From IMG/VR virus record IMGVR_UViG_3300035670_000019, positions 1 to 64,000 of that record: a stretch of 64,000 nt of DNA. One strand, 5' to 3'. This stretch comes from a virus. The position numbers were made by a program, and so were the translations under genes. Shown here one piece after another: positions 9,701 through 62,561 of this stretch. Position 1 is the stretch's first letter. Each line of letters begins with the position of its first letter. The notes beneath the pieces are model-generated. The model saw nothing but the letters and a program-made list of their open reading frames with translations, was not told the DNA's origin and made no database searches.

Positions 9701-9708
9701 TATTTATA
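9701..9708 (+). promoter_or_regulatory. Candidate late promoter element TATTTATA
   Basis: TATTTATA ends 13 bases before the ATG at 9722, in the gap directly behind the previous stop. The same octamer and often the same 13-base spacing recur before other blocks. Confidence 0.4.
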
Positions 9709-9721
9709 ATAAATTTACTAA

Positions 9722-10090
9722 ATGGAAAAAAAACTACGTACCTTAATAACTCAGTTGGTTAATGAAGAGATTTCTCTTATGGAGAAAAAGCGCAAGAAAG
9801 ATGAAGCACCATCTGAGGAAAATGTTGAACTAAACCTAGACATGCCAGCTGAAGAACCAGCTGCTGAACCTACTACTGAGCCCGCTGCTGAACCTACAAC
9901 TGAACCAGATATGGATTTAAGTGGAGGTGATTCAACAGAAAAACGTATAGGTCAAGGTTTACAAATGGCTTTAGATGCAGCTAAAGAAATGCCTGATGGT
10001 GAAAATAAAACCAAATTAGTAAGACAAATCGGAAATACAGCTCTATTTTTCCTGAAAACACAAATCCCAGGAACTGGAGATCAAGTATAA
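9722..10090 (+). CDS. Leader-bearing Glu/Pro-rich putative internal capsid protein
   Basis: 122 residues. The N-terminus KLRTLITQLVNE (Glu at residue 15) is a class A-like leader. A low-complexity Ala-Glu-Pro-Thr linker (about residues 38-64) separates it from a compact helical C-terminal domain (GLQMALDAAKEMPDGENKTK). This build of leader, flexible acidic linker and small helical domain is seen again in the gene at 16912. The domain has no match I recognise. A promoter-like octamer lies 13 bases upstream. Confidence 0.55.
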   Translation: MEKKLRTLITQLVNEEISLMEKKRKKDEAPSEENVELNLDMPAEEPAAEPTTEPAAEPTTEPDMDLSGGDSTEKRIGQGLQMALDAAKEMPDGENKTKLVRQIGNTALFFLKTQIPGTGDQV

Positions 10091-10119
10091 TTTATATTAA
10101 TTTAAAATCAATAAAATCT

Positions 10120-10293
10120 ATGACAACTCAAGAGTTATTTGAACAAATGCAAGGTTTATGGAACGAGTTTTCAGCTGAACACTCTAAAGCGTCTAAGGCT
10201 GCTCATGGTAGAGCCCGTAAGGCGGTTGGCGATCTGAAAAAGTTAGTGACCGAATACCGTAAAGCTTCTGTCGCAGAAGACAAAGCAAAGTAA
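10120..10293 (+). CDS. Histone H1-like DNA-binding protein (Bacteroidetes type)
   Basis: 57 residues: MTTQELFEQMQGLWNEF, then SKASKAAHGRARKAVGDLKK, then LVTEYRKASVAEDKAK. The order of an N-terminal helix, a GRARKAVGDLKKLV core and a lysine-rich tail matches the small histone-H1-like proteins common in Bacteroidetes. It should bind and compact DNA, either host or phage. It has its own gap of 29 bases upstream and is followed at once by a strong hairpin terminator, so it is probably a separately expressed, abundant product. GC content is visibly higher than in neighbouring genes, which fits recent capture from a host. Confidence 0.78.
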   Translation: MTTQELFEQMQGLWNEFSAEHSKASKAAHGRARKAVGDLKKLVTEYRKASVAEDKAK

Positions 10294-10309
10294 TGAACCG
10301 CAATAAGTT

Positions 10310-10340
10310 ATAAGGGGGGATGACCCCCTTATTCTTATTT
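10310..10340 (+). terminator. Hairpin terminator behind H1-like gene
   Basis: ATAAGGGGG, loop GATGA, CCCCCTTAT: a perfect nine-base stem followed by TCTTATTT. It lies 17 bases after the H1-like stop. Confidence 0.75.
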
Positions 10341-10353
10341 AAAATTGATTAAT

Positions 10354-11010
10354 ATGCCATACGAAAGAAAAGGTAAGTGTATATACAATAAAGAAACAGG
10401 TGAAAAAAAAGGCTGTTCTACTTCTGTTGGTAAAGCTAAAAAATATATGAGAGCTTTATACGCTGCTGAAAATGGTATTATTAAAGAAGAAGAAAGTGAA
10501 TTATCTCAAGCTATTCAAGATAGAGCAGAAGATATTTACCAAGCAATGAAAGCAACTGCTTTAGACTCAGCAGTAGATAGATATGAGGCTGATGCTGAAG
10601 ATGTATTACGACGTAGAGCAATAAAAATAGCTAAAAAACAAGTTAAAATGAAAAACATAGATCGCCTTAAAGAAATTATTAAGAAAAAATTAACTAAAAA
10701 ACAAGAAAAAATTGATGTTAATAATGATGGCCAAATAAACGGAAAAGATTTTAAACTACTTCGCTCTAAAAAAGCAGTCAAAGAAGAACTTGATTATGAA
10801 GGTGAAATGGCTAAATCTGAACTTCGTAACATCATCCAAAATGCTCAAGAACTAATGAACTCTTTAGATGATGACACTCAGTTAGAAGCTTGGGTTCAAA
10901 GTAAACTTACTAAAGCTAATGATTACCTAAATTCAGTAACACAATATTTAGGTTATCAAAACACTAAACAAGGCCCAACAGACGAAAAATTAGAATACAC
11001 TATAGACTAA
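10354..11010 (+). CDS. Hypothetical protein with EF-hand/dockerin-like calcium loop
   Basis: 218 residues from the ATG at 10354 (a TTG nine bases earlier is in frame but less likely). The N-terminus has YERKGKCIYNKETGEKKGCS, a two-cysteine motif seen in other phage proteins. Residues 121-132 (DVNNDGQINGKD) fit a canonical EF-hand or dockerin calcium loop, with oxygen ligands at positions 1, 3, 5 and 12 and Gly at 6. Around it are lysine-rich helices (KNIDRLKEIIKKKLTKKQEK) and a helical C-terminus. A calcium-sensing or calcium-stabilised virion protein is plausible. Downstream genes follow with very short gaps. Confidence 0.55.
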   Translation: MPYERKGKCIYNKETGEKKGCSTSVGKAKKYMRALYAAENGIIKEEESELSQAIQDRAEDIYQAMKATALDSAVDRYEADAEDVLRRRAIKIAKKQVKMKNIDRLKEIIKKKLTKKQEKIDVNNDGQINGKDFKLLRSKKAVKEELDYEGEMAKSELRNIIQNAQELMNSLDDDTQLEAWVQSKLTKANDYLNSVTQYLGYQNTKQGPTDEKLEYTID

Positions 11011-11014
11011 TACA

Positions 11015-11563
11015 ATGGCAAGTAAACAGGAATTAATAGATAAAATTCAAACTATAGCTAAGCGAGTATACGCTTCTAAAGTTAAAGATAATACCTTAGG
11101 TGTCACACCTGATGATGTTGATTTTGATACAGAGACATTTCCTGTTTTAACAAAATTCCCTATATTAAAAAAAGTTGTAACAGATTTACTAACAGATCAA
11201 TATGAGATGTTTATATCTGATATACAATGGGTCGCCCCACGTCCTACAACATTTAAAATAATGTTAGCTAATGGACAATTCTTTTATTTTATCTATACTG
11301 AAAGATCATGGATCGCTCAGGTAGAAGGTAAAAAATATTATTTATTAAATATAAATGAGGAAGAACAAGCAGCTGATTCTATCGCTCGTATCTTAAGATA
11401 TGGTGGTAAAACAGAACCTGAAAAAGCTGAAGTACCTACAGGAGGTGAAACACCAGCAGATGAGCCTGTTCCAACAGGTGAAGAAACACCTGCTCCTGAA
11501 GGAGGAGAAGAAACTCCACCAGCTGAAGAACCAGCTGAAGTTGAACCAACAGTACCAGCATAA
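11015..11563 (+). CDS. Hypothetical protein with Pro/Glu-rich tail
   Basis: 182 residues. Residues 1-130 form a globular alpha/beta domain (DIQWVAPRPTTFKIMLANGQ, then FFYFIYTERSWIAQVEGKKY). The last 50 residues are a low-complexity Glu-Pro-Thr-Gly tail. A similar globular part followed by an acidic tail occurs in proteins of T4-like aquatic phages, function unknown. The following nuclease gene starts one base after its stop, so the two are likely translated together. Confidence 0.5.
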   Translation: MASKQELIDKIQTIAKRVYASKVKDNTLGVTPDDVDFDTETFPVLTKFPILKKVVTDLLTDQYEMFISDIQWVAPRPTTFKIMLANGQFFYFIYTERSWIAQVEGKKYYLLNINEEEQAADSIARILRYGGKTEPEKAEVPTGGETPADEPVPTGEETPAPEGGEETPPAEEPAEVEPTVPA

Positions 11564-11564
11564 T

Positions 11565-12359
11565 ATGTTTGAACAATTTTTAAATAAAATAGCTCATAAA
11601 TTTCCTAAAGGATATCCTGACATGAATAATGAACAGGATATTTTAATTATTGAATCTGAGTTAAAAAAATTAGGTCTTTACTTAGAAGAAGATCTTGATT
11701 CTACAATTAAGGATCTAACCAGTAAAGATAAAAAAATATCTAAACTCCAAACATTCACAGACTTAGCCACCTTAACATACCAACAGTATGATTTAGGTGA
11801 TATTAAAAAAGTATTTCCTAATCCTGTAAATACTATAAAAGATTGGAGACAATATGTTGAAAAATCATTATCTAATAAAGGTAGAGAAGTAGAAAATTGT
11901 ATTAAAAATTATGCTATCTCTCAAAATGTAGAATCAAAAGAAATATCTAAAGGAAGAGGTGAGGATGTTATAATCGGAGGTAAAACCACTGAGATTAAAT
12001 CCATGCAAGATAATAAAATTAACACTCAACTCCAAACTAGTTTTTATACTAATGACCCAAATAAATTTTATATTTTTGTTTCAAATACATCTCAAAAAGA
12101 TATTGATGTTAGGGTAGTTTCTAGTCAACTTTTATTTAGAGCTATTTTAGGTAATGATGTTGTTGATGAAATTGAAAAAACTGGAGAATCTAAAGTTTTA
12201 TTAGATCAAGTAATAAAAGGAATAGAAACATTAGATTTGAAAAAATTTATAATGACTTCTTTATTAACAGGTAAAACATCTGAAGGATCTAAATCTTTCT
12301 TTATAGGAAAAGATGATAAAATAAGAGTAAGATTTGTAATATATATTGAGCCCAAATAA
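11565..12359 (+). CDS. Putative PD-(D/E)XK endonuclease
   Basis: 264 residues from the ATG at 11565; the frame is open upstream to 11400 but that part reads through the preceding gene and is not natural. Residues 133-145 (E-D-V-I-I-G-G-K-T-T-E-I-K) hold an acidic residue, a short strand and E143-x-K145, the core of a restriction-endonuclease fold, followed by QLQTSFYTND. An upstream Glu in REVENCIKNYA may complete the site. It would cut DNA with a metal ion. It could act in packaging, host DNA degradation or exclusion; context does not decide. Confidence 0.6.
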   Translation: MFEQFLNKIAHKFPKGYPDMNNEQDILIIESELKKLGLYLEEDLDSTIKDLTSKDKKISKLQTFTDLATLTYQQYDLGDIKKVFPNPVNTIKDWRQYVEKSLSNKGREVENCIKNYAISQNVESKEISKGRGEDVIIGGKTTEIKSMQDNKINTQLQTSFYTNDPNKFYIFVSNTSQKDIDVRVVSSQLLFRAILGNDVVDEIEKTGESKVLLDQVIKGIETLDLKKFIMTSLLTGKTSEGSKSFFIGKDDKIRVRFVIYIEPK

Positions 12360-12361
12360 CT

Positions 12362-13042
12362 ATGAAACAACGCCTCCTAGAAATAATTAGAAAAGCATTA
12401 ACAGAACAACCTAAAAAGAAAAAATGTGATTGTGGTTGTGATAAATGTACTGATGCTCCTATGCTAAATGAGTCTAAACAATATGTTATGCCTATATCAG
12501 AGAACATGCGTTATCATTTGGATAAAAAAATACCTATCCATGATAACACATTTCGTCCTGGTTCTAAAGCTCACATTGATTTAATCCACGAAACTCGCTT
12601 ATTATGGAAAAAAGGAGTTATTGAATTACAAGGTGAAGATAAAAAGTTATTTGAAAACACAGACTTAGGTCGTTTTGGAATATATGAAGGTGAAGTAGTT
12701 CCACTTGATTATCCAATGATGGTAATTGAAACTTTAACAGAAGCAGAATTAGAAGAAGAAAAGAAACAACCTGCTTTAGGTAAACCAAAACGTGGTGGTT
12801 CTAAAAAGTTTTATGTTTATGTTAAAGATCCTAAAACCAAGCGCATTAAAAAAGTATCATTTGGTATGGCAGGTGGTGGATTACGTGCTAAATTAAATAA
12901 CCCTAAAGCACGTCAGGCGTTTTCAAAAAGACATGATTGTCCTAATAAAAAAGACAGAACAAAGGCGTCGTACTGGAGTTGTGCGTTGCCTCGTTATGCG
13001 AAACTATTAGGATTTAAAACAACATTCTCAGGATACTGGTAA
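12362..13042 (+). CDS. Leader-bearing Cys-rich basic protein
   Basis: 226 residues in three parts. A class A-like leader MKQRLLEIIRKALTE (L-T-E ending at residue 15) is followed by a Lys run and CDCGCDKC, a compact metal-binding cluster. A middle acidic helical domain follows. The C-terminal basic domain contains KKFYVYVKDPKTKRIKKVSF and DCPNKKDRTKASYWSCALPR, a conserved ending found in many uncharacterised T4-like phage proteins. The basic end could bind DNA. The leader suggests it is packaged. It starts two bases after the nuclease stop. Confidence 0.55.
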   Translation: MKQRLLEIIRKALTEQPKKKKCDCGCDKCTDAPMLNESKQYVMPISENMRYHLDKKIPIHDNTFRPGSKAHIDLIHETRLLWKKGVIELQGEDKKLFENTDLGRFGIYEGEVVPLDYPMMVIETLTEAELEEEKKQPALGKPKRGGSKKFYVYVKDPKTKRIKKVSFGMAGGGLRAKLNNPKARQAFSKRHDCPNKKDRTKASYWSCALPRYAKLLGFKTTFSGYW

Positions 13043-13043
13043 T

Positions 13044-13427
13044 ATGAAACTAACACACATACTAAGACAACTTCTTGAGGAGCAAAAGAAAAAAGCAGAC
13101 CGCTGTAAACGCATTGCTGACCGCAAATATGATAAACCATCTGCTTACAAATCAGGCGCTATTGTTAGATGCCGTCAAGGTAAAATCTGGAAAGATTTAA
13201 AAGAAGAAGATTTAAATGAAGATGAATCACTTCATAAATGGTTCAAACGTAAAGGAACACCTGGTAAAGAAGGTGGTTGGGTAGATTGTAATACTTGTAG
13301 GGATGGTAAATGTAAACCATGTGGTAGAAAAGAAGGAGAAAAGCGCGCTAAATACCCTTCATGTCGTCCTACACCCGCTCAATGTAAAACAAAAGGCAAA
13401 GGCAAAAAATGGGGGAAAACCAAATAA
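13044..13427 (+). CDS. Leader-bearing Cys-rich basic protein
   Basis: 127 residues, strongly basic. It begins MKLTHILRQLLEE, a shortened class A-like leader. The C-terminal half is SLHKWFKRKGTPGKEGGWVD, then C-N-T-C, C-K-P-C and later single cysteines in a Lys/Gly-rich context, a likely zinc-binding domain that is conserved in aquatic phages and unnamed. Start and stop are one base from the upstream gene and 15 bases from the next. With the preceding gene it forms a pair of packaged-looking, metal-binding, DNA-friendly proteins. Confidence 0.55.
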   Translation: MKLTHILRQLLEEQKKKADRCKRIADRKYDKPSAYKSGAIVRCRQGKIWKDLKEEDLNEDESLHKWFKRKGTPGKEGGWVDCNTCRDGKCKPCGRKEGEKRAKYPSCRPTPAQCKTKGKGKKWGKTK

Positions 13428-13442
13428 TTAAAAGATAAATAA

Positions 13443-14102
13443 ATGAGTTATTTAGTAACTAATGTCCCTCCAGTAGAGGTTTTTATTAGAAAAGAATTTT
13501 TGTATGATTTTGAATTAGACAAAAATGGAAAACTTTTAGGAAAAGGAGAATTTGAATCAGCCCATTGGATTTCAGCTAAATCTATCCCTAACCAAGCTTT
13601 ATATTTTGAATCATTAATTCATGACTATGGTGCTTTATATGATAAACTACCTTTACATGCTTATGTTTGGAAAACAAATATAAAAGAAAATGAACTGTAT
13701 CCTTTAGATTGGCTTCAATTGTGGGATTGTTTTTCATATAATATAACCACTATTAAAAAACAAAGATTACGAAACGCTAGATGTGAAGTAGTAATGAAGG
13801 ATAAAACTAAAGCCCCTGGTTATTATTTATTCACTATAGATTCATGCTCATCAGATCCAAATGAATTAGATGTTTCTTGGTCTGAGACACCAAATGAACA
13901 TAAATCTTTTAATATAATTAAATTAGATAATGGACAATTTGCAGCCCAACCTAATAATAGAGTACTTTGGAAACATCAATCTCAAACATCATCAACAGAT
14001 TTAAAAACTCCGTATTTTAGATTTTCTACTAAAACATGGATTTGTGAAAATCAAGATAGATGGACAGCTGCTAATGCTACTAAATTTAATTATGATGAGT
14101 AA
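13443..14102 (+). CDS. Conserved hypothetical phage protein
   Basis: 219 residues beginning MSYLVTNVPPVEVFIRKEFL. It has a beta-rich, aromatic composition, conserved-looking stretches (LPLHAYVWKTNIKENELYPL, DWLQLWDCFSY, PNNRVLWKHQS) and no membrane segment. I recognise this as a recurring protein of T4-like phages without a known function. The stop overlaps the start of the following cupin-like gene by eight bases. Confidence 0.5.
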   Translation: MSYLVTNVPPVEVFIRKEFLYDFELDKNGKLLGKGEFESAHWISAKSIPNQALYFESLIHDYGALYDKLPLHAYVWKTNIKENELYPLDWLQLWDCFSYNITTIKKQRLRNARCEVVMKDKTKAPGYYLFTIDSCSSDPNELDVSWSETPNEHKSFNIIKLDNGQFAAQPNNRVLWKHQSQTSSTDLKTPYFRFSTKTWICENQDRWTAANATKFNYDE

Positions 14103-14355
14103 TCCTTATAAAGACATAGAAGTCACTGACAAATATATTATTCGTGAATTTAACGAAAATATAGATCCTATTGAACTTAAATGGCATCGTGATAGAGAAG
14201 ATCGTTTAATAGAAATAATAGGAGAAACAGATTGGATGATACAACTTGAAAACCAACTACCAACTTCCCTAAACCAACCCATATTTATACCAGCAGGTGA
14301 ATGGCATAGAGTCATTAAAGGAAAAAATACTTTAATTCTTAAAATTAATAAGTAG
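14095..14355 (+). CDS. Cupin-like small phage protein
   Basis: 86 residues from the ATG at 14095 (ATG at 14092 is also in frame; the longer frame back to 14044 runs inside the previous gene). It begins MSNPYKDIEVTDKYIIREF and contains DPIELKWHRDREDRLIEI and PIFIPAGEWHRVIKG. The paired His residues in KWHRD and EWHRV spaced across a small beta structure suggest a cupin barrel with a metal site. The substrate is unknown. It overlaps both neighbours. Confidence 0.55.
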   Translation: MSNPYKDIEVTDKYIIREFNENIDPIELKWHRDREDRLIEIIGETDWMIQLENQLPTSLNQPIFIPAGEWHRVIKGKNTLILKINK

Positions 14356-17151: not shown

Positions 17152-17153
17152 TC

Positions 17154-18479: not shown

Positions 18480-18485
18480 AAAACA

Positions 18486-19118: not shown

Positions 19119-19130
19119 AAATTATATTAA

Positions 19131-19138
19131 TATTTATA
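19131..19138 (+). promoter_or_regulatory. Candidate late promoter element TATTTATA
   Basis: Lies in the gap after 19118 and 16 bases before the ATG at 19155, within TTAATATTTATAAATAAA. Confidence 0.4.
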
Positions 19139-19154
19139 AATAAACCCTAATAAA

Positions 19155-20189: not shown

Positions 20190-20195
20190 CATATA

Positions 20196-20214: not shown

Positions 20215-20243
20215 GCTTTAACTAAAAACTAAAATGGAGCTGT

Positions 20244-22069: not shown

Positions 22070-22087
22070 GTATTTAATTTCTGGTGA

Positions 22088-22095
22088 TATTTATA
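22088..22095 (+). promoter_or_regulatory. Candidate late promoter element TATTTATA
   Basis: Directly before the endonuclease; only three bases separate it from the ATG at 22099, so if it is a promoter the transcript would begin inside the gene or leaderless. Weaker case than others. Confidence 0.25.
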
Positions 22096-22710: not shown

Positions 22711-22716
22711 TTCATA

Positions 22717-22724
22717 TATTTATA
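22717..22724 (+). promoter_or_regulatory. Candidate late promoter element TATTTATA
   Basis: Thirteen bases before the ATG at 22738, directly after the endonuclease stop. Confidence 0.4.
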
Positions 22725-23671: not shown

Positions 23672-23707
23672 AATTTGATAAGTTTATACATAACCTTTAA
23701 TGTTTAG

Positions 23708-23731
23708 GGCTTGGCTTTGCCAAGCCTTTTT
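23708..23731 (+). terminator. Rho-independent terminator
   Basis: GGCTTGGC-TTT-GCCAAGCC, a perfect eight-base stem followed by five T. It closes the accessory block. Confidence 0.85.
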
Positions 23732-23744
23732 GCTATATTCACTA

Positions 23745-23752
23745 TATAAATA
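23745..23752 (+). promoter_or_regulatory. Candidate promoter element TATAAATA
   Basis: TATAAATA, the classic T4 late promoter core, nine bases before the ATG at 23762 and just after a terminator. The short distance implies a very short leader. Confidence 0.45.
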
Positions 23753-23761
23753 AAAAACATA

Positions 23762-24946
23762 ATGAATATACACGAGGACTTATCAAAAATTGGCAAGCAG
23801 TTAATGCTTAGTGAACCATTCTATGGTGTATTCTTATCTACTCTTAATAAAGTAGTTAGAAAAGATGTACCAACAGCTGGTGTTTGTTTACAAGGTATTA
23901 ATTATCAATTAGCAGTTAATGAAGAGTTTTGGAACTCACTACCAGGAGATAAACCAAAAATAGGACTACTCAAACATGAGTTGCTCCATATTTGCTTTAA
24001 TCATCTTCTTGATAGAGATGACTACCCAGATCAAGAATTACATAATGTAGCAGCTGATATTGAAATCAATCAATATATAGCTGAGGAGTATTATCCATCT
24101 AAAGATCTTCTATTACCAAGTTCATATCCTGAACTGAATTTGCCTTTAAAAGCTGGTACTAAAGTATATTATGGTTTGTTAAAACAAGCTTTAGAAAGTG
24201 GAGCTAGTCCAAAACTACAACAATTAATGGATGGTTTAAAAGGTGAAGGTCTACATCCAACTTGGAGTGAGTTTGATGGTTTAAGTGAAGCTGATGCTAA
24301 ACTAGCCAAATCACAACTTGAACATCAAATTAAAGAAATACTTAAAAGTCAATCAGATAAGGGTAGAGGTTTTGTTCCATCTGAGTTAGAAAGTTTTATA
24401 GATGATATATTAGCTGAAAGTGAACCATCATATGATTGGAGATCGTATTTTAGAAAATTTGCAGGTACATCAACTCGAGTCTATACTAAAAAAACAAGAC
24501 GTAAACTAAACAAACGTTTCCAAGAAAATCCAGCCTTAAAAATTAAAACTAAAAAGAATATACTTGTAGGCATTGATACATCAGGTTCAGTTCTTAATGA
24601 AGATTTAGCTAGATTTTTTGCTGAGATACATCATATGTACAAAACTGGAGTAACAATCACTGTAGCTGAAGGTGACGCTGCTATTCATAATGTATGGGAA
24701 TATAAAGGCGAGATGCCTAATTCTGTTACAGGTAGAGGCGGTACAAACATGAATCCGTTTATCCATTATTTTAATGAACATAAAGAATATAATAGTTTAA
24801 TTATATTAACTGATGGATTCATAGGTGAAAATAAAATTAAATCATTCAAACCAACTTTAATGGTCATAACACCGAATGGTGAAAGTTTAGATGTAATTAA
24901 AGAAAACGGATGGGGCAACACTATTAAAATGAATTTGGCCTCCTAA
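23762..24946 (+). CDS. Metallopeptidase-like / VWA-domain protein (DUF2201 type), partner of MoxR
   Basis: 394 residues. The N-terminal domain has LLKHELLHICFNH with H72-E-L-L-H76, a zinc-binding HExxH helix. The C-terminal domain begins VGIDTSGSV, where D272-x-S274-x-S276 is the metal-ion-dependent adhesion site of a von Willebrand A fold, later supported by RGGTNM and ILTDGF. This order is that of DUF2201 proteins, which are usually encoded beside a MoxR AAA+ ATPase, as here. Such pairs are thought to act as chaperone or metal-insertion machines on a target protein; the phage target is unknown. The gene starts a new transcription unit. Confidence 0.82.
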   Translation: MNIHEDLSKIGKQLMLSEPFYGVFLSTLNKVVRKDVPTAGVCLQGINYQLAVNEEFWNSLPGDKPKIGLLKHELLHICFNHLLDRDDYPDQELHNVAADIEINQYIAEEYYPSKDLLLPSSYPELNLPLKAGTKVYYGLLKQALESGASPKLQQLMDGLKGEGLHPTWSEFDGLSEADAKLAKSQLEHQIKEILKSQSDKGRGFVPSELESFIDDILAESEPSYDWRSYFRKFAGTSTRVYTKKTRRKLNKRFQENPALKIKTKKNILVGIDTSGSVLNEDLARFFAEIHHMYKTGVTITVAEGDAAIHNVWEYKGEMPNSVTGRGGTNMNPFIHYFNEHKEYNSLIILTDGFIGENKIKSFKPTLMVITPNGESLDVIKENGWGNTIKMNLAS

Positions 24947-24984
24947 TAAATCATTGTTATATTTAATTAAAATAAAGGTTACAA

Positions 24985-26183: not shown

Positions 26184-27290
26184 ATGTATATAGCACAACT
26201 AATATTTGACCCAGGTCGTAATAAACAATTTCATACTAATGGTTGGGAAAAAGTAGCAGGCATTATACCTGAATCATATAAGCAACGGTATTTAGCTTTA
26301 TATGAGGCTAATAAAGATAATAAAATTGAAAATAAAACAACAGTTTATTCAACACCATTATCTGAGTTACCTTCATATAAATTAAAAAACTACATAACAG
26401 AGAATAAACTAAATATTAAAACAGCTAGAAAATTTGATAAATTAGATGCTGTTATTATTAGTGATTTATTTATTAGAGAAAACTATACAGATCTTAAACA
26501 ATATAATTGGGATCAAACAACTAAACAATCATATTTTACCCCCAAACCATCAGAAAATCTATATATAATCCCAGTTGACTTTATTATAGATAATCCTAAA
26601 TTTTCAAAATATAGAAACCAAACAACTCAGTATGGTTATAGTAATGATATAGTTAAAGATCGTAAAGGTGAAGCATACACCCACTATGTTATTACTGAAA
26701 AAAATCTAAATGATTGGATTCAATTTGATCCTAATTTTGAGATTATTAAAAAACACTCACCTTTGCCTGGTTTTATAATTACTAGTCATCATGGTAATAC
26801 TAAGGCATGTAAAAACATTAATTTTTTCTTAAACTTAATTGACAATATTGAAAAATATAACTTAAAAGTTATTTTTGATACATCAGTCAATAATGATATT
26901 AATCAAGGTGTTGTAGTTGATTTTGATATGTATCAAACTCTTTATAATATGCTTAATAGTTCTGATGTTGAGAATTGGGAAATGGCTAGAGAAATAACAG
27001 CTAACTGCGAGTATGATACATCAAAACCATATCTGATGCATCTATATTGTAGTTTTAGTCAATTAAGAAAAGCAAATGGTTCTGCTAACTATCAATTCCT
27101 AAAAAAGAAACTAGATAAAGAAGTTAATATGGGGAGTTATGGTAGATATGGTGGTCCGTCATTCACTGCTATAACAAAGCATTTAGTTACTAAATTCCCA
27201 GCTTATAATCAAGTATTTTTAGATTGCTTTAAATATCAAGTTAATACATTTATTGGTAAAGATGTAATTAAAGAAATAACATCCTACTAA
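26184..27290 (+). CDS. Unknown protein, third member of the MoxR-VWA unit
   Basis: 368 residues, start two bases after the MoxR stop. No domain is recognised. It begins MYIAQLIFDPGRNKQFHTNG and includes LPGFIITSHHGNTKACKNIN and VVDFDMYQTLYNMLNSSD, giving an alpha/beta mixture with paired His residues. Its tight linkage to the ATPase and metallopeptidase-VWA protein makes a substrate, adaptor or partner role likely, by analogy with other MoxR ternary systems. The following gap holds a promoter-like octamer. Confidence 0.5.
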   Translation: MYIAQLIFDPGRNKQFHTNGWEKVAGIIPESYKQRYLALYEANKDNKIENKTTVYSTPLSELPSYKLKNYITENKLNIKTARKFDKLDAVIISDLFIRENYTDLKQYNWDQTTKQSYFTPKPSENLYIIPVDFIIDNPKFSKYRNQTTQYGYSNDIVKDRKGEAYTHYVITEKNLNDWIQFDPNFEIIKKHSPLPGFIITSHHGNTKACKNINFFLNLIDNIEKYNLKVIFDTSVNNDINQGVVVDFDMYQTLYNMLNSSDVENWEMAREITANCEYDTSKPYLMHLYCSFSQLRKANGSANYQFLKKKLDKEVNMGSYGRYGGPSFTAITKHLVTKFPAYNQVFLDCFKYQVNTFIGKDVIKEITSY

Positions 27291-27298
27291 TATTTATA
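27291..27298 (+). promoter_or_regulatory. Candidate late promoter element TATTTATA
   Basis: Begins right after the stop of the previous gene and ends 13 bases before the ATG at 27312. Confidence 0.4.
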
Positions 27299-28332: not shown

Positions 28333-28344
28333 TTTTTTTTTTGA

Positions 28345-28352
28345 TATTTATA
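28345..28352 (+). promoter_or_regulatory. Candidate late promoter element TATTTATA
   Basis: Thirty-five bases before the ATG at 28388 and behind a run of nine T that may end upstream transcription. Confidence 0.35.
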
Positions 28353-29173: not shown

Positions 29174-29181
29174 TATAAATA
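29174..29181 (+). promoter_or_regulatory. Candidate promoter element TATAAATA
   Basis: TATAAATAAAA directly after the terminator and nine bases before the ATG at 29191, the same arrangement as at 23745. Confidence 0.45.
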
Positions 29182-29721: not shown

Positions 29722-29723
29722 TA

Positions 29724-29731
29724 TATTTATA
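29724..29731 (+). promoter_or_regulatory. Candidate late promoter element TATTTATA
   Basis: Between the kinase stop and the terminase ATG at 29755 (23 bases downstream). Confidence 0.4.
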
Positions 29732-29754: not shown

Positions 29755-31326
29755 ATGAGTCAAGACTTAAAACAAATAATACGAGACGAATACTTAAAAT
29801 GTGCTCAAGACCCAGCACACTTTATGAAAAAGTATTGCCACATTCAGCATCCAACTCGTGGTAGAATTATATTTAATTTATACCCATTTCAAGAAAAAGT
29901 ACTACGTTTATGGAGAGATCATCCATATGATATAGTACTTAAGTCTCGACAATTAGGTATATCAACTTTAGTAGCAGGTTATTCATTATGGTTAATGACC
30001 TTCCAAAAAGACAAAAACGTTCTTTGTATAGCTACTAAACAAGAGACAGCTAAAAACATGGTGACAAAAGTCAAATTCATGTTTGAAAATTTACCATCTT
30101 GGTTAAAGATACCTGCTGAAGAAAATAATAAATTAACGTTACGATTAAATAACGGTTCTCAAATTAAAGCAGTTTCAGCGGCAGGTGACGCAGGTCGATC
30201 AGAAGCAGTGTCACTTCTAATTATAGATGAGGCTGCTTTTATTGAAGGTATAGCTGAGATATGGGCATCTGCTCAACAAACCTTAGCAACTGGTGGTGGA
30301 GCAATTGTGTTATCTACTCCATATGGTACTGGTAATTGGTTCCATCAAACATGGGTTAGAGCTGAAGCTCAACAAAATGACTTCTTACCTATTAAACTCC
30401 CATGGTATGTTCATCCTGAGCGTGATGAAAATTGGAGAAAAAAACAAGATGAATTACTAGGAGACCCACGACTAGCAGCACAAGAATGCGACTGTGACTT
30501 TAATACTTCAGGTGATACTGTGTTTTATAGTGAACAACTAGACTTTATTTTTGCTACCTCTGTTAAAGATCCTTTAGAAAAGCGTGGTATAGATCGTAAT
30601 TTATGGATATGGGAACTACCAGATTATACACGAAGTTATATGGTTGTTGCTGACGTAGCTCGTGGAGATGGTAAAGACTTTTCAACATTTCATGTTATAG
30701 ATACTGAATTAAATACACAAGTTGCTGAATATAAAAGCCAAATATCACCAAAAGAATTTGGTTATTTACTAGTGAGTATTGCAACAGAATATAATGATGC
30801 GTTGTTAGTTGTTGAAAATGCTAACATAGGATGGTCAACTCTTGATGCAATTATTGAAAGAGGATACAGAAATTTATATTATTCTCCAAAAAGTGAGGCG
30901 TTAAATGCGGAAACTTACTTAGAAAGAACAGATGATCCATCAAGAATGACACCAGGTTTTACAATGTCTATGAGAACTCGTCCGTTAGTTGTAAATAAAT
31001 TTAGAGAATACGTTGGAGATAAAAGTGTTACCATACAATCTAAGCGTCTTCTTGAAGAAATGAAAGTGTTTATATGGAGAAATGGTAGACCTGAAGCACA
31101 ATCTGGTTATAATGATGACTTAGTTATGAGTTTTGCTATTGGAATGTATGTTCGTGACACTGCTTTAAAATACAAAACACAAGGTTTAGATCTAACACGT
31201 GCTGCTTTGAGTAATATGGCAACTGTTAGACCAAATCCTCAAGGTAACTACACTATGAATGGTGTTCCTAACCCGTATCAAATGAATATAGGTGGGCAAG
31301 ATGAAGATATAAGGTGGTTACTGTAA
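29755..31326 (+). CDS. 17: Terminase large subunit (gp17-like)
   Basis: 523 residues. The ATPase has a Walker A-like KSRQLGIST (residues 63-71) and a Walker B LLIIDEAAF (D158-E159). The C-terminal RNase H-type nuclease shows D300 in VVADVARGDG, E354 in VVENANIG and D454-D455 in YNDDLVMSF. It pumps DNA into the prohead through the portal and cuts the concatemer. It is shorter than T4 gp17 (610 residues), mainly at the N-terminus. No small terminase gene lies next to it in this window. The portal gene follows after 26 bases. Confidence 0.95.
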   Translation: MSQDLKQIIRDEYLKCAQDPAHFMKKYCHIQHPTRGRIIFNLYPFQEKVLRLWRDHPYDIVLKSRQLGISTLVAGYSLWLMTFQKDKNVLCIATKQETAKNMVTKVKFMFENLPSWLKIPAEENNKLTLRLNNGSQIKAVSAAGDAGRSEAVSLLIIDEAAFIEGIAEIWASAQQTLATGGGAIVLSTPYGTGNWFHQTWVRAEAQQNDFLPIKLPWYVHPERDENWRKKQDELLGDPRLAAQECDCDFNTSGDTVFYSEQLDFIFATSVKDPLEKRGIDRNLWIWELPDYTRSYMVVADVARGDGKDFSTFHVIDTELNTQVAEYKSQISPKEFGYLLVSIATEYNDALLVVENANIGWSTLDAIIERGYRNLYYSPKSEALNAETYLERTDDPSRMTPGFTMSMRTRPLVVNKFREYVGDKSVTIQSKRLLEEMKVFIWRNGRPEAQSGYNDDLVMSFAIGMYVRDTALKYKTQGLDLTRAALSNMATVRPNPQGNYTMNGVPNPYQMNIGGQDEDIRWLL

Positions 31327-31334
31327 TATTTATA
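31327..31334 (+). promoter_or_regulatory. Candidate late promoter element TATTTATA
   Basis: In the terminase-portal gap, immediately after the stop and 18 bases before the ATG at 31353. Confidence 0.4.
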
Positions 31335-33242: not shown

Positions 33243-33254
33243 TATCTCCATATA

Positions 33255-33262
33255 TATTTATA
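33255..33262 (+). promoter_or_regulatory. Candidate late promoter element TATTTATA
   Basis: Between portal and the 284-residue protein, 20 bases before the ATG at 33283. Confidence 0.4.
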
Positions 33263-39205: not shown

Positions 39206-39215
39206 TCTGTTTTAA

Positions 39216-39223
39216 TATTTATC
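39216..39223 (+). promoter_or_regulatory. Candidate late promoter element TATTTATC
   Basis: After the capsid terminator and 13 bases before the phoH ATG at 39237. One base from the common octamer. Confidence 0.35.
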
Positions 39224-39932: not shown

Positions 39933-39933
39933 A

Positions 39934-39941
39934 TATTTATA
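39934..39941 (+). promoter_or_regulatory. Candidate late promoter element TATTTATA
   Basis: Directly after the phoH stop, 13 bases before the ATG at 39955. Confidence 0.4.
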
Positions 39942-45584: not shown

Positions 45585-45599
45585 TACTAAATCTTTTAA

Positions 45600-45607
45600 T
45601 ATTTATA
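45600..45607 (+). promoter_or_regulatory. Candidate late promoter element TATTTATA
   Basis: In the 37-base gap, 14 bases before the ATG at 45622. Confidence 0.4.
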
Positions 45608-52096: not shown

Positions 52097-52239
52097 TGGC
52101 AAAGTTTTTAACTGAAATACAATTTGTATCCACAAGCTCAATGGAAACACCAGAGCCTGGATTTGTAACAGTATATATGAATACTAATGGATATTTATAC
52201 GCAAAATTTCCTAATGGGGAACAAGCTAGGTTAAGTTAA
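52096..52239 (+). CDS. Small fibre adaptor protein
   Basis: 47 residues: MAKFLTEIQFVSTSSMETPE, then PGFVTVYMNTNGYLYAKFPN, then GEQARLS. The start overlaps the previous stop (TAATG). The pattern F-x-T-x-S-x-x-T-P-x-x-G-x-x-x-x-Y followed by Y-x-x-x-x-x-G is the same as the first 45 residues of the next two Gly-rich proteins, so this is a stand-alone copy of their N-terminal module, perhaps an attachment piece. Confidence 0.65.
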   Translation: MAKFLTEIQFVSTSSMETPEPGFVTVYMNTNGYLYAKFPNGEQARLS

Positions 52240-52245
52240 TATGTT

Positions 52246-53376: not shown

Positions 53377-53390
53377 AGGAATATTTTTAT

Positions 53391-54503: not shown

Positions 54504-54524
54504 TAAAAAAATAATTTTTAACAA

Positions 54525-54740: not shown

Positions 54741-54741
54741 A

Positions 54742-54749
54742 TATTTATA
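54742..54749 (+). promoter_or_regulatory. Candidate late promoter element TATTTATA
   Basis: Directly after the stop at 54740 and seven bases before the ATG at 54757. Confidence 0.35.
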
Positions 54750-54756
54750 ATAAATT

Positions 54757-55011: not shown

Positions 55012-55031
55012 TTTTTCGAATCACTTTAGGA

Positions 55032-55039
55032 TATTTATC
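55032..55039 (+). promoter_or_regulatory. Candidate late promoter element TATTTATC
   Basis: In the 69-base gap before the sheath gene, 41 bases from the ATG at 55081. Confidence 0.35.
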
Positions 55040-55080
55040 ATCAAACCCCAATTAAAAAACAATTTAATTAAACAAATAAC

Positions 55081-56799: not shown

Positions 56800-56819
56800 T
56801 AAAAAGTTAACTGTTTAAA

Positions 56820-56827
56820 TATTTATT
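56820..56827 (+). promoter_or_regulatory. Candidate late promoter element TATTTATT
   Basis: Between sheath and tube, 22 bases before the ATG at 56850. Confidence 0.35.
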
Positions 56828-56849
56828 AACAAATAAAAACTAAAAGAAA

Positions 56850-57338
56850 ATGGCAATTATAGACGCAAATGAAATGTTTTTTACAGCGTTTGAACCAAAA
56901 CAGGCTAACCGATTTATCCTGTACGCTGATGGAATACCAACATGGATGATTAAAGGAGTAAGTGCAGTGAACTTAACTCAAGGTGAAGTAATATTAAACC
57001 ACATTAACGTTTTACGTAAAGTAAAAGGTAAAACAGTTTGGGGTGATGTTACTATGACACTTCATGATCCGATTTCACCATCAGGTGCTCAAACAATCAT
57101 GGAATGGGTTCGCTTATCACACGAATCAGTAACAGGTAGAGATGGATACTCAGACTTCTATAAGAAGGATTTAGTTATCAATGCTCTTGGTCCTGTAGGT
57201 GACGTGGTAGCAGAATGGGTACTTAAAGGCGCATTTGTAAAAGATGCTAACTTTGGTGAATATAACTGGGATACTGAAAATACCGCTATAAACATCACAA
57301 TGACATTAGCAATTGACTACGCCGTGTTAAACTACTAA
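56850..57338 (+). CDS. 19: Tail tube protein (gp19-like)
   Basis: 162 residues, matching T4 gp19 (163). It starts with ANEMFFTAFEPKQANRFILY and has VILNHINVLRKVKGKTVWGD and TMTLHDPISPSGAQTIMEW, the usual tube pattern, ending in an INITMTLAIDYA strand. Hexameric rings stack into the rigid tube under the sheath. A terminator follows, so sheath and tube can be made in excess over downstream genes. Confidence 0.93.
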   Translation: MAIIDANEMFFTAFEPKQANRFILYADGIPTWMIKGVSAVNLTQGEVILNHINVLRKVKGKTVWGDVTMTLHDPISPSGAQTIMEWVRLSHESVTGRDGYSDFYKKDLVINALGPVGDVVAEWVLKGAFVKDANFGEYNWDTENTAINITMTLAIDYAVLNY

Positions 57339-57364
57339 AAGTTAAACCCAATAACTATAAAAAG

Positions 57365-57394
57365 AGCTCGCATTTTTTGCGAGCTTCTTTTTTC
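57365..57394 (+). terminator. Rho-independent terminator behind tube gene
   Basis: AGCTCGC, loop ATTTTTT, GCGAGCT then TCTTTTTTC. Confidence 0.8.
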
Positions 57395-57400
57395 TTTATA

Positions 57401-57408
57401 TATTTATA
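57401..57408 (+). promoter_or_regulatory. Candidate late promoter element TATTTATA
   Basis: After the tube terminator, 34 bases before the ATG at 57443. Confidence 0.4.
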
Positions 57409-57442
57409 TACAACAAATAAAATGTTATAACAAAAATTATCT

Positions 57443-58177
57443 ATGGAAAATAAGTTTAGTATGCCAACAGAAATGGTTGAATTGCCTTCAAAAGGCTTAG
57501 TCTACCCAGAAACAAGTCCTCTCTCAAGCGGTAAAATTGAAATGAAATATATGACCGCTAAAGAAGAAGATATCTTAACTAACCAATCCTACATTCAAAA
57601 AGGAACAGTATTAGATGAACTAATCAAGTCTCTTATTGTTACTCCAGATATAAAATATGAAGATTTAATTGTGGGTGATAAAAATGCTTTACTAGTAGCT
57701 GCTCGTATTTTAGGTTACGGTAAAGATTATAAGTTTACATACGGTGGAGAAGAACAAACAATTGATCTATCAACTGTAGAAAATAAAGTTATTCTTGATC
57801 ATTTATATACTAAAGGTGTAAATGAATTTGAATATACACTTCCTTCAACAGGTACTAAAATTACCTTTAAACTTTTAACAGGCCATGATGAGAAAAAAAT
57901 CAATGCTGAGTTAGAAGGTTTAAAGAAAATCAATAAAAATAATGTACCTGAATTATCAACTCGTTTAAAATATATGATTACCTCAATTGAAGGTAATACA
58001 GAACCTAAAGCAATTAGGGAATTTGTTGATAATCATTTCTTAGCTCGTGACTCTAGAGCCTTCAGAGAGTACATAAAGGAGGTACAACCAGATGTTGATC
58101 TGACCTTTTTTCCCGACGGGAGCGACACAAAAGTTAACATTCCAGTTGGACTTAGCTTTTTTTGGCCTGACCTCTGA
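57443..58177 (+). CDS. gp26-like baseplate/tail-assembly protein
   Basis: 244 residues. VELPSKGLVYPETSPLSSGK and IEMKYMTAKEEDILTNQSYI match the T4 gp26 family of baseplate hub proteins, as does the ending VGLSFFWPDL. The gene lies between the tube and tape measure, the place where tail-assembly chaperones sit in other phages. Its last 32 bases overlap the following frame at a run of seven T, discussed as a possible frameshift site. Confidence 0.8.
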   Translation: MENKFSMPTEMVELPSKGLVYPETSPLSSGKIEMKYMTAKEEDILTNQSYIQKGTVLDELIKSLIVTPDIKYEDLIVGDKNALLVAARILGYGKDYKFTYGGEEQTIDLSTVENKVILDHLYTKGVNEFEYTLPSTGTKITFKLLTGHDEKKINAELEGLKKINKNNVPELSTRLKYMITSIEGNTEPKAIREFVDNHFLARDSRAFREYIKEVQPDVDLTFFPDGSDTKVNIPVGLSFFWPDL

Positions 58178-58445
58178 TCTAGCTAAACAACATCGAGTTA
58201 ATCTTTTTACTCAAATACATGAGATAGTTTTTCATGGCCAAGGCGGTTATGACTGGGAAACAGTCTATAACATGCCTATTTGGCTTCGTAAGTTCACTTT
58301 CCATAAAATGAAAGAACATTATGATGAGAAAAATGGAGATGGAAATGGTGATCTAGCATCTCAAACTAAAGCTATCAAAGATGGTAAAATCCAACTCCCA
58401 GACCATTTTAAAGGTAAATTAGCCAATAAAGCTCCAAAGTATTAA
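58146..58445 (+). CDS. Small tail-assembly protein in overlapping +1 frame
   Basis: About 100 residues including TQIHEIVFHGQGGYDWETVY and NMPIWLRKFTFHKMKEHYDE, a pattern found after the gp26-like gene in relatives. No ATG exists before this conserved part: the first ATG in frame (near 58273) would remove half of it. The gene therefore either starts at TTG 58146, in the overlap, or is made as an extension of the upstream protein by a +1 frameshift near 58157-58163. The stated start is the earliest candidate start codon, not proven. Confidence 0.65.
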   Translation: MDLAFFGLTSDLAKQHRVNLFTQIHEIVFHGQGGYDWETVYNMPIWLRKFTFHKMKEHYDEKNGDGNGDLASQTKAIKDGKIQLPDHFKGKLANKAPKY

Positions 58446-58453
58446 TATTTATA
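58446..58453 (+). promoter_or_regulatory. Candidate late promoter element TATTTATA
   Basis: Directly behind the stop at 58445, 19 bases before the tape measure ATG. Confidence 0.4.
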
Positions 58454-58472
58454 ATATATACTTTATCACAAC

Positions 58473-61400
58473 ATGGCTGAAGAATCTAAGTTATCAAAAG
58501 CGGAAATACAAGAATTAAGAGCCCTTATAAGACTTCTTAAGGAAGAAATGACTGATGTTGAGTTTGATAACTTAATCAAATCAGGTCCAGCAGCTAAAAA
58601 ACTATTAACAGAATTAAGAGTAGAAAATGGCTCTTTTAGAGATAGCATTTCAGATGCTCGTGAAGCATTTAAAAGACTTTCTGATGAAATTAAAGGTACT
58701 CAATCTGGTGTAAAAACAGTAGCCTCTATCTATAATAAAACAGCTAGACTAGCTGAAGACATCCAGCGATACCAAAAAGGTATAGTTGATTATAATGAAA
58801 AAGATATATCTAAACTTCAAGAAAAATCAAAAATTCAAAAATTAGATCTTGAAAATGCTGATAAAGTTTTAAAAGCTGAAGAAAAAGATTTAAAATTAGC
58901 TGAACAAAACAAAAAACTCCTACAAGATCAATTACTACTCCAGTACGACCTTAAAAAAGCAGCTCTACAGAGACAGGGGATAGATATTAAAAATAACAGA
59001 GAGTTAAAAGAACTTGAAAAACAATACAATAAAGTAGATAAAGAGCTTGAATCTATTAGTGAAAAACTAGAAAAGAATAGAGACACTCAAGGTGAAATTA
59101 GTGGAGCATTAAAAGATCAAGATGGTTTTTACAATGTATTAAATGCCTCTATAGCAGATCTTAATAGTAAATTAGAACAACAGAATAAATTATTAGGATT
59201 AGGTGGTGCGGTTGTAGCAAGTTTAGACACAGCTTTAAATGGTTTAGGATTAGGTAGATTAGCTGGTGCTTTAGGTATTAGTGAAGCTAAAAACGAAATG
59301 GATGAATTTTCTAAGAAAATTCTTAAAGATCGTGAAGAGCAATTAATTTTAGAAAAAGAAATTAAGGATGAGATGAAAGCTAGAGCAGGAGGTAAAGGTC
59401 AACTTTCACCTGAAGTTTTAGCTGAAAAGTATAAACAATTAAATGCTCTTAAAGCTCAAAATGCTCAATATGATGGTATAAATGGTAAGTTAGCTGTATT
59501 GAAGAAAGGTATTTCTTCAATGGGAGCGTCTTTGCTTAAAAATCTAACTGACCCTGTATCTTTAGCTGTAGCAGCAGTAGGAGCATTAATTAGTACTTTA
59601 AAAGCATCAGACCAAGCAACAGGAGAATTAGCTAAAAATTTTGGTACAAGCTACAGAGAAGCTTCCAAAATGCGACAAGAATTAAATGAAGTAGCTAACT
59701 CCACAAGTAACATTAATGTTACAACTGAAAAACTACAAAAAACTCAAATGGCTGTTGCAGCAGCTGTTGGTTCTACCGCTATGCTAAATCAAGAAGATTT
59801 AGTTACCATGACTGAAATGGTAGAACAAGCTGGCTATCAGTATGATGAGGTAATGAATATTCAAAAATTATCTCTAGCACAAGGTAAAACATTAAAAGAT
59901 AATACAACACAAATACTAGGAGCTGCTAAAGCATATGCCTCTAGAAACAAATTAGTTATAAATGAAAAAGAAGTTCTTAAAGAAGTAAACAAAATGTCAG
60001 CCTCCTTAAAATTATCATTAGGTGGTAGCGCTGATAAAATGGCTGAAGCTGTTGTTAAAACTAAAGCTCTTGGTTTAAGTATAGAACAAGCTGAAAAAAT
60101 GGCTGATGGGTTATTACAATTTGAGTCTTCTATTTCTTCTGAAATGGAAGCTGAAATGTTAACCGGTAAAGCTTTAAATTTTGAAAAAGCAAGATTATTA
60201 GCTTTAAATAATGATGTAGCAGGGGCAGCTGAAGAAATAGCTAAACAGGTAGGTACTTCCGCTGATTTTGCTAAAATGAACCGCATCCAACAAGAAGCAT
60301 TAGCTAAAGCTGCTGGTATGGAGAGAGATGAGTTGGCTCAATCGTTAATGGATAGAGAAGCATTAGCCGCTTTATCTGATGTTGAAGGTAAAACAGCTAA
60401 AGAACGTTTTGATAATTTAGTTAAAGAAGTTGGAATGGAAGAAGCTAAAAAACGTCTAGGAAACGATGAATTAGCCCAACAATATGAATCCCAATCAATA
60501 CAAGAAAAATTCCAAGCCACAGCCCAAAAAGTCATGGATATTTTTGTATCCATGGCTCAACCTATATTAGATATAGTTAACGCTTTAACCCCTGTTTTCA
60601 AATTTGTTGGTTGGATAGCTAGTGGAATAGGTTCAATTGTAAATCTTTTAAATAAAGCTACCTTTGGTATGCTTCCTGCTCTTATAGGTGGTTTTGCAGT
60701 ACTTAAATTACTATCAGGTGATATAGGTAAATCATTACTTAAAGGCTTAGTTTATCCTTTTAAAGCAGCTAAAGAAGGACTTTCCTCATTAAGTGGTGGA
60801 CTTAAATCAATGTTTTCCGAAATCAAAGAAAAAGGAATTGGAGGAGCATTTAAAGACGCATTTACATCTGTTAAAGATAAAATTTCAGGTAAATCAAAAG
60901 CTAAAGACCTAGCTTCGAAAGTTGCGGAAATGAAAAAGCAATCCCCTGGTATGACTTCTAAAGAAGCTCTAGAAAAGATTAGAGCATCAAACAAAGACGT
61001 AGCAGGAGGAGCAGCGGATAAAGCAGGTAACTTAGCAAATAAAGCTAAAGATAAAGCTGATAAAGTATCTGATAGCACTAAAGGTGGAGATAAAGCTAAA
61101 AACTTTGCTGATAGAATGAAAAATATAGCTAAAGGTATAGCAGCCTTTGGCACTAAAGAAGTATTATTCGGAGCATTAAACCTTATCCCAGTATCCGTTG
61201 GTTTAATAGCTATGCTTCCTGGTTTTTTAGGTGCTAAAGCTATTGAAAAACTTGATGGTAAAAAATTAAAAACCTCATTAGAAGGTTTAGCTAAAGGTAT
61301 TGAAGCTATGGCTAAAGGTAAAGTAGCTTTAGGAGCATTAGCTTTAACAGCCGCTGGAGTAGCTTTAGTTGCTGCTCTTCCAGGCATGATAGCGGCTGCT

Positions 61401-62546
61401 GCTTTAGGAACTATAGGTCCATTAGTTGAAAAAGGTCTTACATCATTTGCAAAAGGTATTGAAAGATTAGGTACTGGTAAAGTATTTTTAGGTGCTGCTG
61501 CTTTAGCAGCGTTAGGAGCATCTTTAATCCCAGCAGCCATTGCTTTTAAAATGTTTGCTGATATAGATTGGGAAGATATGGGTAAAGCAGGAGCTGCATT
61601 AGTTGGATTAGGAGTAGCAGGGGCTGCATTTGGTGCTTTAGGTGAATCTGGATTGCTTTTTGTAGGAGCAGCAGCGATAGCAGCTTTAGGAGCTTCATTA
61701 ATACCATTTGCTTATGCTTTAAACCTAATGGCTCCTGCTTTAGAAAAATTTACTCCAATAATTGAAGTATTTGGTAACGTTATATCAAAAACATTTTCAG
61801 GAATAGCCAGTGTAATTACATCAGCATTTGATGGATTATCAAATCTATTTAAAACTTTAGGTGAAGTTGATCCTATTAAATTATTCGCTATAGGACCCGC
61901 TTTAGCAAGTATAGGAGCAGGTTTAGTAGCTTTAGGAGGTGGAGGTTTAGTTGGAGGTATATTAGGTAGTGTAGGTAAATTATTTGGTGGAGATATAGTT
62001 GAAAAATTCAATCATTTAGCTTCTATAGATTCAAGTAAAATATTAACATTAGCTGATGCTATTAATAAATTAAGTGAATCTTTAGCTAGTTTTACTATAG
62101 CAACTGCTAATATAGGTGATACATCAAATATAGAAAAAACTATTGCTAAATTAATAGATTTGCATGATGAGTTTGAAGATACACCTATGGAAAAAGTTAT
62201 CAATACAGCAGTAACAGGAGTTAGTAATTTATTTGATAAAGCTTCATCATTTGTTTCTTCAGTATTTACTCCATCTGAAACTTCAGAAAATATGCCTGAA
62301 ACTCAGATGATGTCTCCTTCAAATATTAACAATGTTAATCAATCATCAACCTCTATTAACAATACATCATCTAATATAGATAATACTAATGTTGTAACTA
62401 TATTAAAAGAAGCTGTAAGTGTATTAAAAGCTATCCAAGCTAAAGATACAAGTGTGCAATTAGCTGTAGATGGTGAAGTTATAGCTAAAAAAATAACTCC
62501 TAATGTTAGTAGAGAACAAGTTAGAACATACTCATCAGTTTCATAA
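58473..62546 (+). CDS. Tail tape measure protein
   Basis: 1357 residues. The N-terminal 400 residues are helical coiled coils (EKSKIQKLDLENADKVLKAE). Around 360-690 lies a helical domain with LTEMVEQAGYQYDEV-type repeats. From about residue 695 there are repeated hydrophobic Gly/Ala helices (PVSVGLIAMLPGFLGAKAIE, LAALGASLIPAAIAFKMF) alternating with charged segments. It ends in an Asn/Ser-rich linker and a small charged domain. This composition and the place behind tube and assembly genes identify the ruler. At roughly 0.15 nm per residue the tail would be near 200 nm, about twice that of T4. Confidence 0.9.
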   Translation: MAEESKLSKAEIQELRALIRLLKEEMTDVEFDNLIKSGPAAKKLLTELRVENGSFRDSISDAREAFKRLSDEIKGTQSGVKTVASIYNKTARLAEDIQRYQKGIVDYNEKDISKLQEKSKIQKLDLENADKVLKAEEKDLKLAEQNKKLLQDQLLLQYDLKKAALQRQGIDIKNNRELKELEKQYNKVDKELESISEKLEKNRDTQGEISGALKDQDGFYNVLNASIADLNSKLEQQNKLLGLGGAVVASLDTALNGLGLGRLAGALGISEAKNEMDEFSKKILKDREEQLILEKEIKDEMKARAGGKGQLSPEVLAEKYKQLNALKAQNAQYDGINGKLAVLKKGISSMGASLLKNLTDPVSLAVAAVGALISTLKASDQATGELAKNFGTSYREASKMRQELNEVANSTSNINVTTEKLQKTQMAVAAAVGSTAMLNQEDLVTMTEMVEQAGYQYDEVMNIQKLSLAQGKTLKDNTTQILGAAKAYASRNKLVINEKEVLKEVNKMSASLKLSLGGSADKMAEAVVKTKALGLSIEQAEKMADGLLQFESSISSEMEAEMLTGKALNFEKARLLALNNDVAGAAEEIAKQVGTSADFAKMNRIQQEALAKAAGMERDELAQSLMDREALAALSDVEGKTAKERFDNLVKEVGMEEAKKRLGNDELAQQYESQSIQEKFQATAQKVMDIFVSMAQPILDIVNALTPVFKFVGWIASGIGSIVNLLNKATFGMLPALIGGFAVLKLLSGDIGKSLLKGLVYPFKAAKEGLSSLSGGLKSMFSEIKEKGIGGAFKDAFTSVKDKISGKSKAKDLASKVAEMKKQSPGMTSKEALEKIRASNKDVAGGAADKAGNLANKAKDKADKVSDSTKGGDKAKNFADRMKNIAKGIAAFGTKEVLFGALNLIPVSVGLIAMLPGFLGAKAIEKLDGKKLKTSLEGLAKGIEAMAKGKVALGALALTAAGVALVAALPGMIAAAALGTIGPLVEKGLTSFAKGIERLGTGKVFLGAAALAALGASLIPAAIAFKMFADIDWEDMGKAGAALVGLGVAGAAFGALGESGLLFVGAAAIAALGASLIPFAYALNLMAPALEKFTPIIEVFGNVISKTFSGIASVITSAFDGLSNLFKTLGEVDPIKLFAIGPALASIGAGLVALGGGGLVGGILGSVGKLFGGDIVEKFNHLASIDSSKILTLADAINKLSESLASFTIATANIGDTSNIEKTIAKLIDLHDEFEDTPMEKVINTAVTGVSNLFDKASSFVSSVFTPSETSENMPETQMMSPSNINNVNQSSTSINNTSSNIDNTNVVTILKEAVSVLKAIQAKDTSVQLAVDGEVIAKKITPNVSREQVRTYSSVS

Positions 62547-62553
62547 AATATAA

Positions 62554-62561
62554 TATTTATA
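62554..62561 (+). promoter_or_regulatory. Candidate late promoter element TATTTATA
   Basis: After the tape measure stop, 25 bases before the ATG at 62587. Confidence 0.4.

Follow-up and report, generated by a model that had tools for sequence, protein, structure and literature searches.

Between genes of the first 64,000 bases of a 163,030-base viral contig (this stretch is called the window here), one short element, TATTTATA, recurs in gap after gap, often just 5' of genes for virion proteins. What does this element do, and what would read it? The original prediction took it for a phage-specific late promoter and for the late core of phage T4 read backwards. A hexamer-based gene caller places 231 of the 233 genes of the contig on the + strand, which is therefore taken as the coding strand. 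Among annotated phages, the Flavobacterium phages immuto (60.5%) and the Microcystis phage Mel-JY01 (52.8%) have the most similar terminases, and the virus is a large one of Bacteroidota-type bacteria.

Distribution of the element

Counted on both strands of the whole window, TATTTATA is in modest excess (29 copies, 20 on + and 9 on -, versus 18.4 +/- 4.4 expected); the signal is one of position and strand rather than of whole-window count. In the gaps of the window, 15 forward copies were found versus 0.95 expected and a maximum of four in 300 dinucleotide shuffles, and the reverse complement, TATAAATA, occurs three times versus 1.8 expected. Throughout the contig, gaps contain 33 forward copies versus 3.1 expected, with the reverse complement matching expectation; intergenic DNA, about 6% of the 163 kb, holds 33 of the 44 forward copies versus 5 of the 21 reverse ones. 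De novo word counting in gaps recovered the element unprompted, together with a second element described below. A scan for sigma-70 promoters (TTGACA/TATAAT) gave a count not above that of shuffles. Both the enrichment over background and the orientation bias that had been proposed as checks are present. The reading as a reversed T4 late core did not hold up: the enriched word is ATATTTATA on the coding strand, and TATAAATA occurs in gaps at the chance level (5 versus 5.1 expected).

The clear sites of the window are collected in Table 1. An earlier count of at least 19 gaps roughly holds, but only with one-base variants admitted; exact copies number 15, to which three clear variants (ATATTTATC, ATATTTATT) and some weaker ones can be added. 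The 13-nt spacing claimed for genes 9722, 22738, 27312, 39237 and 39955 is exact, with phoH (39237) preceded by the variant ATATTTATC, and the element does lie 5' of the terminase, portal, phoH, neck, tail tube, gp26-like and tape measure genes, and of the sheath gene as ATATTTATC at 41 nt. Copies inside called genes, noted earlier near 2197 and 52193, were found at 2197 and 52192 and also at 8792, 14282 and 45781; the one at 52192 lies within a doubtful 47-aa open reading frame, 46 nt 5' of 52246. No recognisable late or early box was found in the 38-nt gap before the major capsid gene (37485), nor in that of immuto, and an upstream promoter may serve this gene. We infer lateness from gene content, given that the genes behind the box include some without an obvious late role (QueE, a homing endonuclease and many hypothetical genes).

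Table 1. Clear sites of the box and its variants in the window
Element	Position	Strand	Relation to the following gene
ATATTTATA box	9700..9708	+	13 nt 5' of gene 9722
ATATTTATA box	19130..19138	+	16 nt 5' of 19155
ATATTTATA box	22087..22095	+	3 nt 5' of ATG 22099 (NUMOD homing endonuclease); predicted leaderless
ATATTTATA box	22716..22724	+	13 nt 5' of 22738
ATATTTATA box	27290..27298	+	13 nt 5' of 27312 (DUF6884)
ATATTTATA box	28344..28352	+	56 nt 5' of called start 28409
ATATTTATA box	29723..29731	+	23 nt 5' of terminase 29755
ATATTTATA box	31326..31334	+	18 nt 5' of portal 31353; kept in 31 of 32 relatives
ATATTTATA box	33254..33262	+	20 nt 5' of 33283
Variant box ATATTTATC	39215..39223	+	After terminator; 13 nt 5' of phoH 39237
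ATATTTATA box	39933..39941	+	13 nt 5' of neck/head completion gene 39955
ATATTTATA box	45599..45607	+	14 nt 5' of 45622 (1524 aa, fibre-like)
ATATTTATA box	54741..54749	+	7 nt 5' of 54757; 13 nt with the orthologue's start METKVL
Variant box ATATTTATC	55031..55039	+	41 nt 5' of tail sheath 55081
Variant box ATATTTATT	56819..56827	+	22 nt 5' of tail tube 56850
ATATTTATA box	57400..57408	+	After terminator (57364-57386); 34 nt 5' of gp26-like gene 57443
ATATTTATA box	58445..58453	+	19 nt 5' of tape measure 58473
ATATTTATA box	62553..62561	+	25 nt 5' of 62587

Conservation in related phages

In the terminase-to-portal gap of 32 relatives picked by terminase, the box is ATATTTATA in 23 and ATATTTATT in eight, and the rest of the gap is variable. 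The strand bias extends to the loci of 160 relatives (434 forward and 23 reverse copies of ATATTTATA) and to the gaps of six large genomes, namely the contig, immuto and four relatives (111 forward, 4 reverse). Whole records of eleven relatives gave forward:reverse counts such as 0:23, 18:0 and 2:23. A control with the pattern reversed carries no information, because ATATTTATA reads identically backwards.

This bias is present in phages that carry the sigma-like gene described below, and absent in T4 (6:7) and P-SSM4 (0:2), neither of which matches the sigma profile. The gut phage MT121964, which does not match it either, has six copies only (5:1), and RM378, with a weak match, has the box at 3:3. 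Two other genomes deserve mention. The 484-kb phage genome LR756508.1 encodes a sigma of 46% identity and has little ATATTTATA, with no box 5' of the portal gene; this phage may use an altered box. Mel-JY01 (PP395634.1), reported from Microcystis elabens, has a sigma of 41% identity and the box at 17:6, like Flavobacterium phages, and its host assignment may be worth checking.

Two promoter classes

Alignment of the 33 gap sites gives the consensus A-TATTTATA-A-T-A-A-A, and the logo of these sites shows nothing conserved upstream of the box, where a -35 or -33 element would lie. At 71 leadered sites of the six genomes (start codon at least 12 nt from the box), the fourth base after the box is A in 54 and the fifth in 62.

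The second element, TTTGGC-N-GATGTTATATTTAG, occurs in some twenty gaps, TTTG and TATATTTA being separated by about 20 bases. In the form TTTGGC-N-TTATATTTAG it fits the boxes and spacing of the Bacteroidota housekeeping -33/-7 promoter, with TTTA replacing TTTG. This early class is found at 113676-142000 of the contig, most densely within a block of small genes, and at 24957 and 28046 of the window; at three of its sites an ATG lies 4 nt after the -7 box. Gaps of the block at 128.5-142.9 kb contain 16 early sites (after manual merging of overlapping pattern matches), and ATATTTAT(A/T) is missing there; in the structural regions, at 29-69 kb and from 143 kb onwards, 14 late-type and no early-type sites were counted. 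For 14:0 versus 0:16 Fisher's test gives about 7e-9; a value of 6e-12 results when overlapping early matches are counted twice. Across relatives the extended early motif varies, while ATATTTATA is still enriched or strand-biased; the pattern TTTG-N-TAnnTTTA is too loose there for promoter counts.

The sequence ATATTTA is common to the two classes, in identical register, and some sites carry late and early elements together (115928-115940). The box could accordingly be a modified host-type promoter, read by the host housekeeping sigma (-33 TTTG/-7 TAnnTTTG) with the help of a phage activator; use of host sigma throughout is presumed for Ma-LMM01 (PMC5780444). We regard this as unlikely. Placed in the -7 register, the late box does not keep the nearly invariant T(-12) (T at 27 of 71 sites), its G(-5) position is not G and the -33 box is absent; moreover, late and early territories do not overlap.

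The early class also bears on copies of TATAAATA that had been singled out before genes 23762 and 29191. They are present (23745 and 29174), but resemble early-type leaders and are not to be pooled with the box. The order at 129424 is TTATATTTAgtaTATAAATAAAAAACAT and that at 23745, after a terminator, is TATATTCActaTATAAATAAAAAACAT; because both are similar to TATAATTAAAAAACA, a leader common in the early class, TATAAATA at these two sites is probably the leader of an early-type promoter. The copy at 29174 is probably similar, less clearly so, its candidate -7 box being unclear. At 23706-23762 of the window and 79570-79620 of the contig, GGCTTGG...CCAAGCC and a T run are followed by TATATTCA / TTATATTTA, and the early-type -33 element appears to overlap the terminator hairpin.

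Spacing to start codons

Box-to-start distances range from 3 to more than 30 nt and are bimodal. Among 518 sites, orthologues included, 119 lie at 3-5 nt, 18 at 6-9 nt and 129 at 10-14 nt; with one modal distance for each of 103 gene families, the corresponding numbers are 22, 3 and 28. Under a flat distribution over 3-14 nt the sparse 6-9 nt zone has a probability of 1.5e-6, a value that is descriptive only because the flat null was picked after the data were seen. In the portal family alone, the spacing is 4 nt in five members and 10-21 nt in 40, with nothing at 5-9 nt. Our gene caller prefers longer open reading frames, which blurs the empty zone and does not create it; start codons deposited for immuto fit the 3-4 nt spacing in three cases (10527, 81525 and 142474), and at three immuto-type sites with a spacing of 1 nt, an in-frame ATG further downstream is conserved.

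At sites with a spacing of 3 or 4 nt, the A of the ATG falls on the same fourth and fifth positions that are A at leadered sites. In Flavobacterium johnsoniae, the -7 box lies 4-5 nt ahead of the transcription start (PMC6847099), and about 5.5% of the mRNAs of F. psychrophilum are leaderless (PMC9723704). Given a spacing of either 3-5 nt or 10 nt and more, the simplest reading places the transcription start 4-5 nt downstream of the box; mRNAs would then be leaderless or have a leader of about 5 nt or longer.

Proximity to start codons, in a host phylum without Shine-Dalgarno sites (PMC6847099), would also suit an RNA-level signal, either a translation enhancer or a processing site that takes the place of such sites. 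This appears quite improbable: the spacing is both bimodal and wide, the early block is free of box copies, yet its genes need translation, and the majority of genes have no box. The position of boxes directly after terminators (39215 and 57400) argues for a promoter instead. As for chance in AT-rich gaps, to which the sharing of bases between several copies and a preceding TAA stop and the small whole-window excess might point, its probability is negligible, being ruled out by a gap excess of about 15-fold over dinucleotide shuffles, the strict strand bias and conservation in relatives.

A probable gp55-like sigma factor

A search for homologues of gp55 and gp33 had been proposed along with the late promoter. 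For gp55 it led to a candidate gene at 147008-147718 of the contig, outside the window, and it gave no match for gp33. This is the only gene of the contig that matches both phrog_234 (gp55; E 3.8e-5) and Sigma70_r2 (E 1.3e-5, under the Pfam cut-off). It was called at 147047; because close relatives share the in-frame extension, its start is probably 147008, for a protein of 236 aa. At least 599 relatives occur in metagenomic viral contigs, the region-2-like stretch is almost invariant and identity to gp118 of immuto, a 'hypothetical protein', is 47%.

An AlphaFold2 model built on 45 sequences reached a pLDDT of 80 and a pTM of 0.46, a model on 20 close sequences being poorer. The best match of the predicted fold is T4 gp55 (7d7c_F; Z 10.5, 126 residues aligned, rmsd 4.4), and nearly all remaining structure matches are sigma factors or sigma domains. 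A Z near 10 is possibly middling for helical proteins. Foldseek gave weak plain E-values (best 0.06) and a list made up mostly of sigma factors. By sequence only, hhalign of this protein with gp55 was weak (probability 3, E 0.015), its profile found no relevant match among PDB sequences, and the late sigma family phrog_12791 was not matched. The identification draws its weight not from Z alone but from family search, fold and motif all pointing the same way; the protein is probably a distant gp55-like sigma factor. Searches with the gp45 and gp33 families (phrog_223 and phrog_254) gave no match in the contig; divergent homologues or another clamp may be present.

The predicted phage-specific promoter is supported by gap enrichment in one orientation, orthologous conservation, the lack of a -35 element, the conserved AA and the sigma gene. 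We consider it likely that ATATTTATA is the -10-type box of such a promoter, probably a late one. The gp55-like sigma would join the host core RNA polymerase and read this single box without a -35/-33 element; transcription would start at an A about 4-5 nt downstream, giving mRNAs whose first base is that of the start codon or that have a short leader, and early genes would use host-type -33/-7 promoters instead. Against this explanation count the weak similarity to gp55, the pTM of 0.46, the missing box of the major capsid gene, boxes before possibly non-late genes and LR756508, which has the sigma and little ATATTTATA.

Comparison with known systems

T4 late promoters likewise consist of a single 8-9 bp AT box at -10 with no -35 element, AT-rich downstream sequence and a position 5' of virion genes (PMC2988020), and the small sigma with its region-2-like domain has a model closest to gp55. 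However, the box is ATATTTATA here and TATAAATA in T4, the sigma is longer than gp55 with a conserved C-terminal part, and gp45 and gp33 are unmatched; clamp coupling may be absent. Start codons here are as near as 3-5 nt; T4 late boxes, by the same method, lie mostly 14-34 nt away. Transcription from T4-type late promoters starts about 6 nt after the box; here the AA at +4/+5 and the placement of ATG are an indirect indication of the start site. Immuto (Immutovirus) has the same box at a 16:1 strand bias, but box and sigma are unannotated there and its extended early promoter is TATATTTAGGTATCAAT.

The open-access literature yielded no paper naming TATTTATA as a phage promoter. A wider proposal is evenly balanced in our judgement: that a gp55-like late system with a box of its own, ATATTTATA, operates across a large group of Bacteroidota phages, to all appearance lacking the T4 clamp and co-activator, and that orthologues such as portal genes alternate between leaderless mRNAs and mRNAs with a leader of about 5 nt or longer, skipping the distances that lie between. 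T4-style late transcription would then reach into Bacteroidota phages, where it would employ another promoter sequence and an unannotated sigma. The box gives a simple rule to mark transcription units in these genomes, and the empty spacing zone makes leaderless translation directly testable in a phylum without Shine-Dalgarno sites.

Two further loci were observed. Homologues of DpdA, QueC, QueD, QueE and FolE at 81104-87727 of the contig, outside the window, probably provide 7-deazaguanine DNA modification, an annotation also given for immuto. The product of 23762-24946 of the window is assigned to an HNH endonuclease family by PHROGs and to DUF2201 metallopeptidase-like and VWA-like domains by Pfam.
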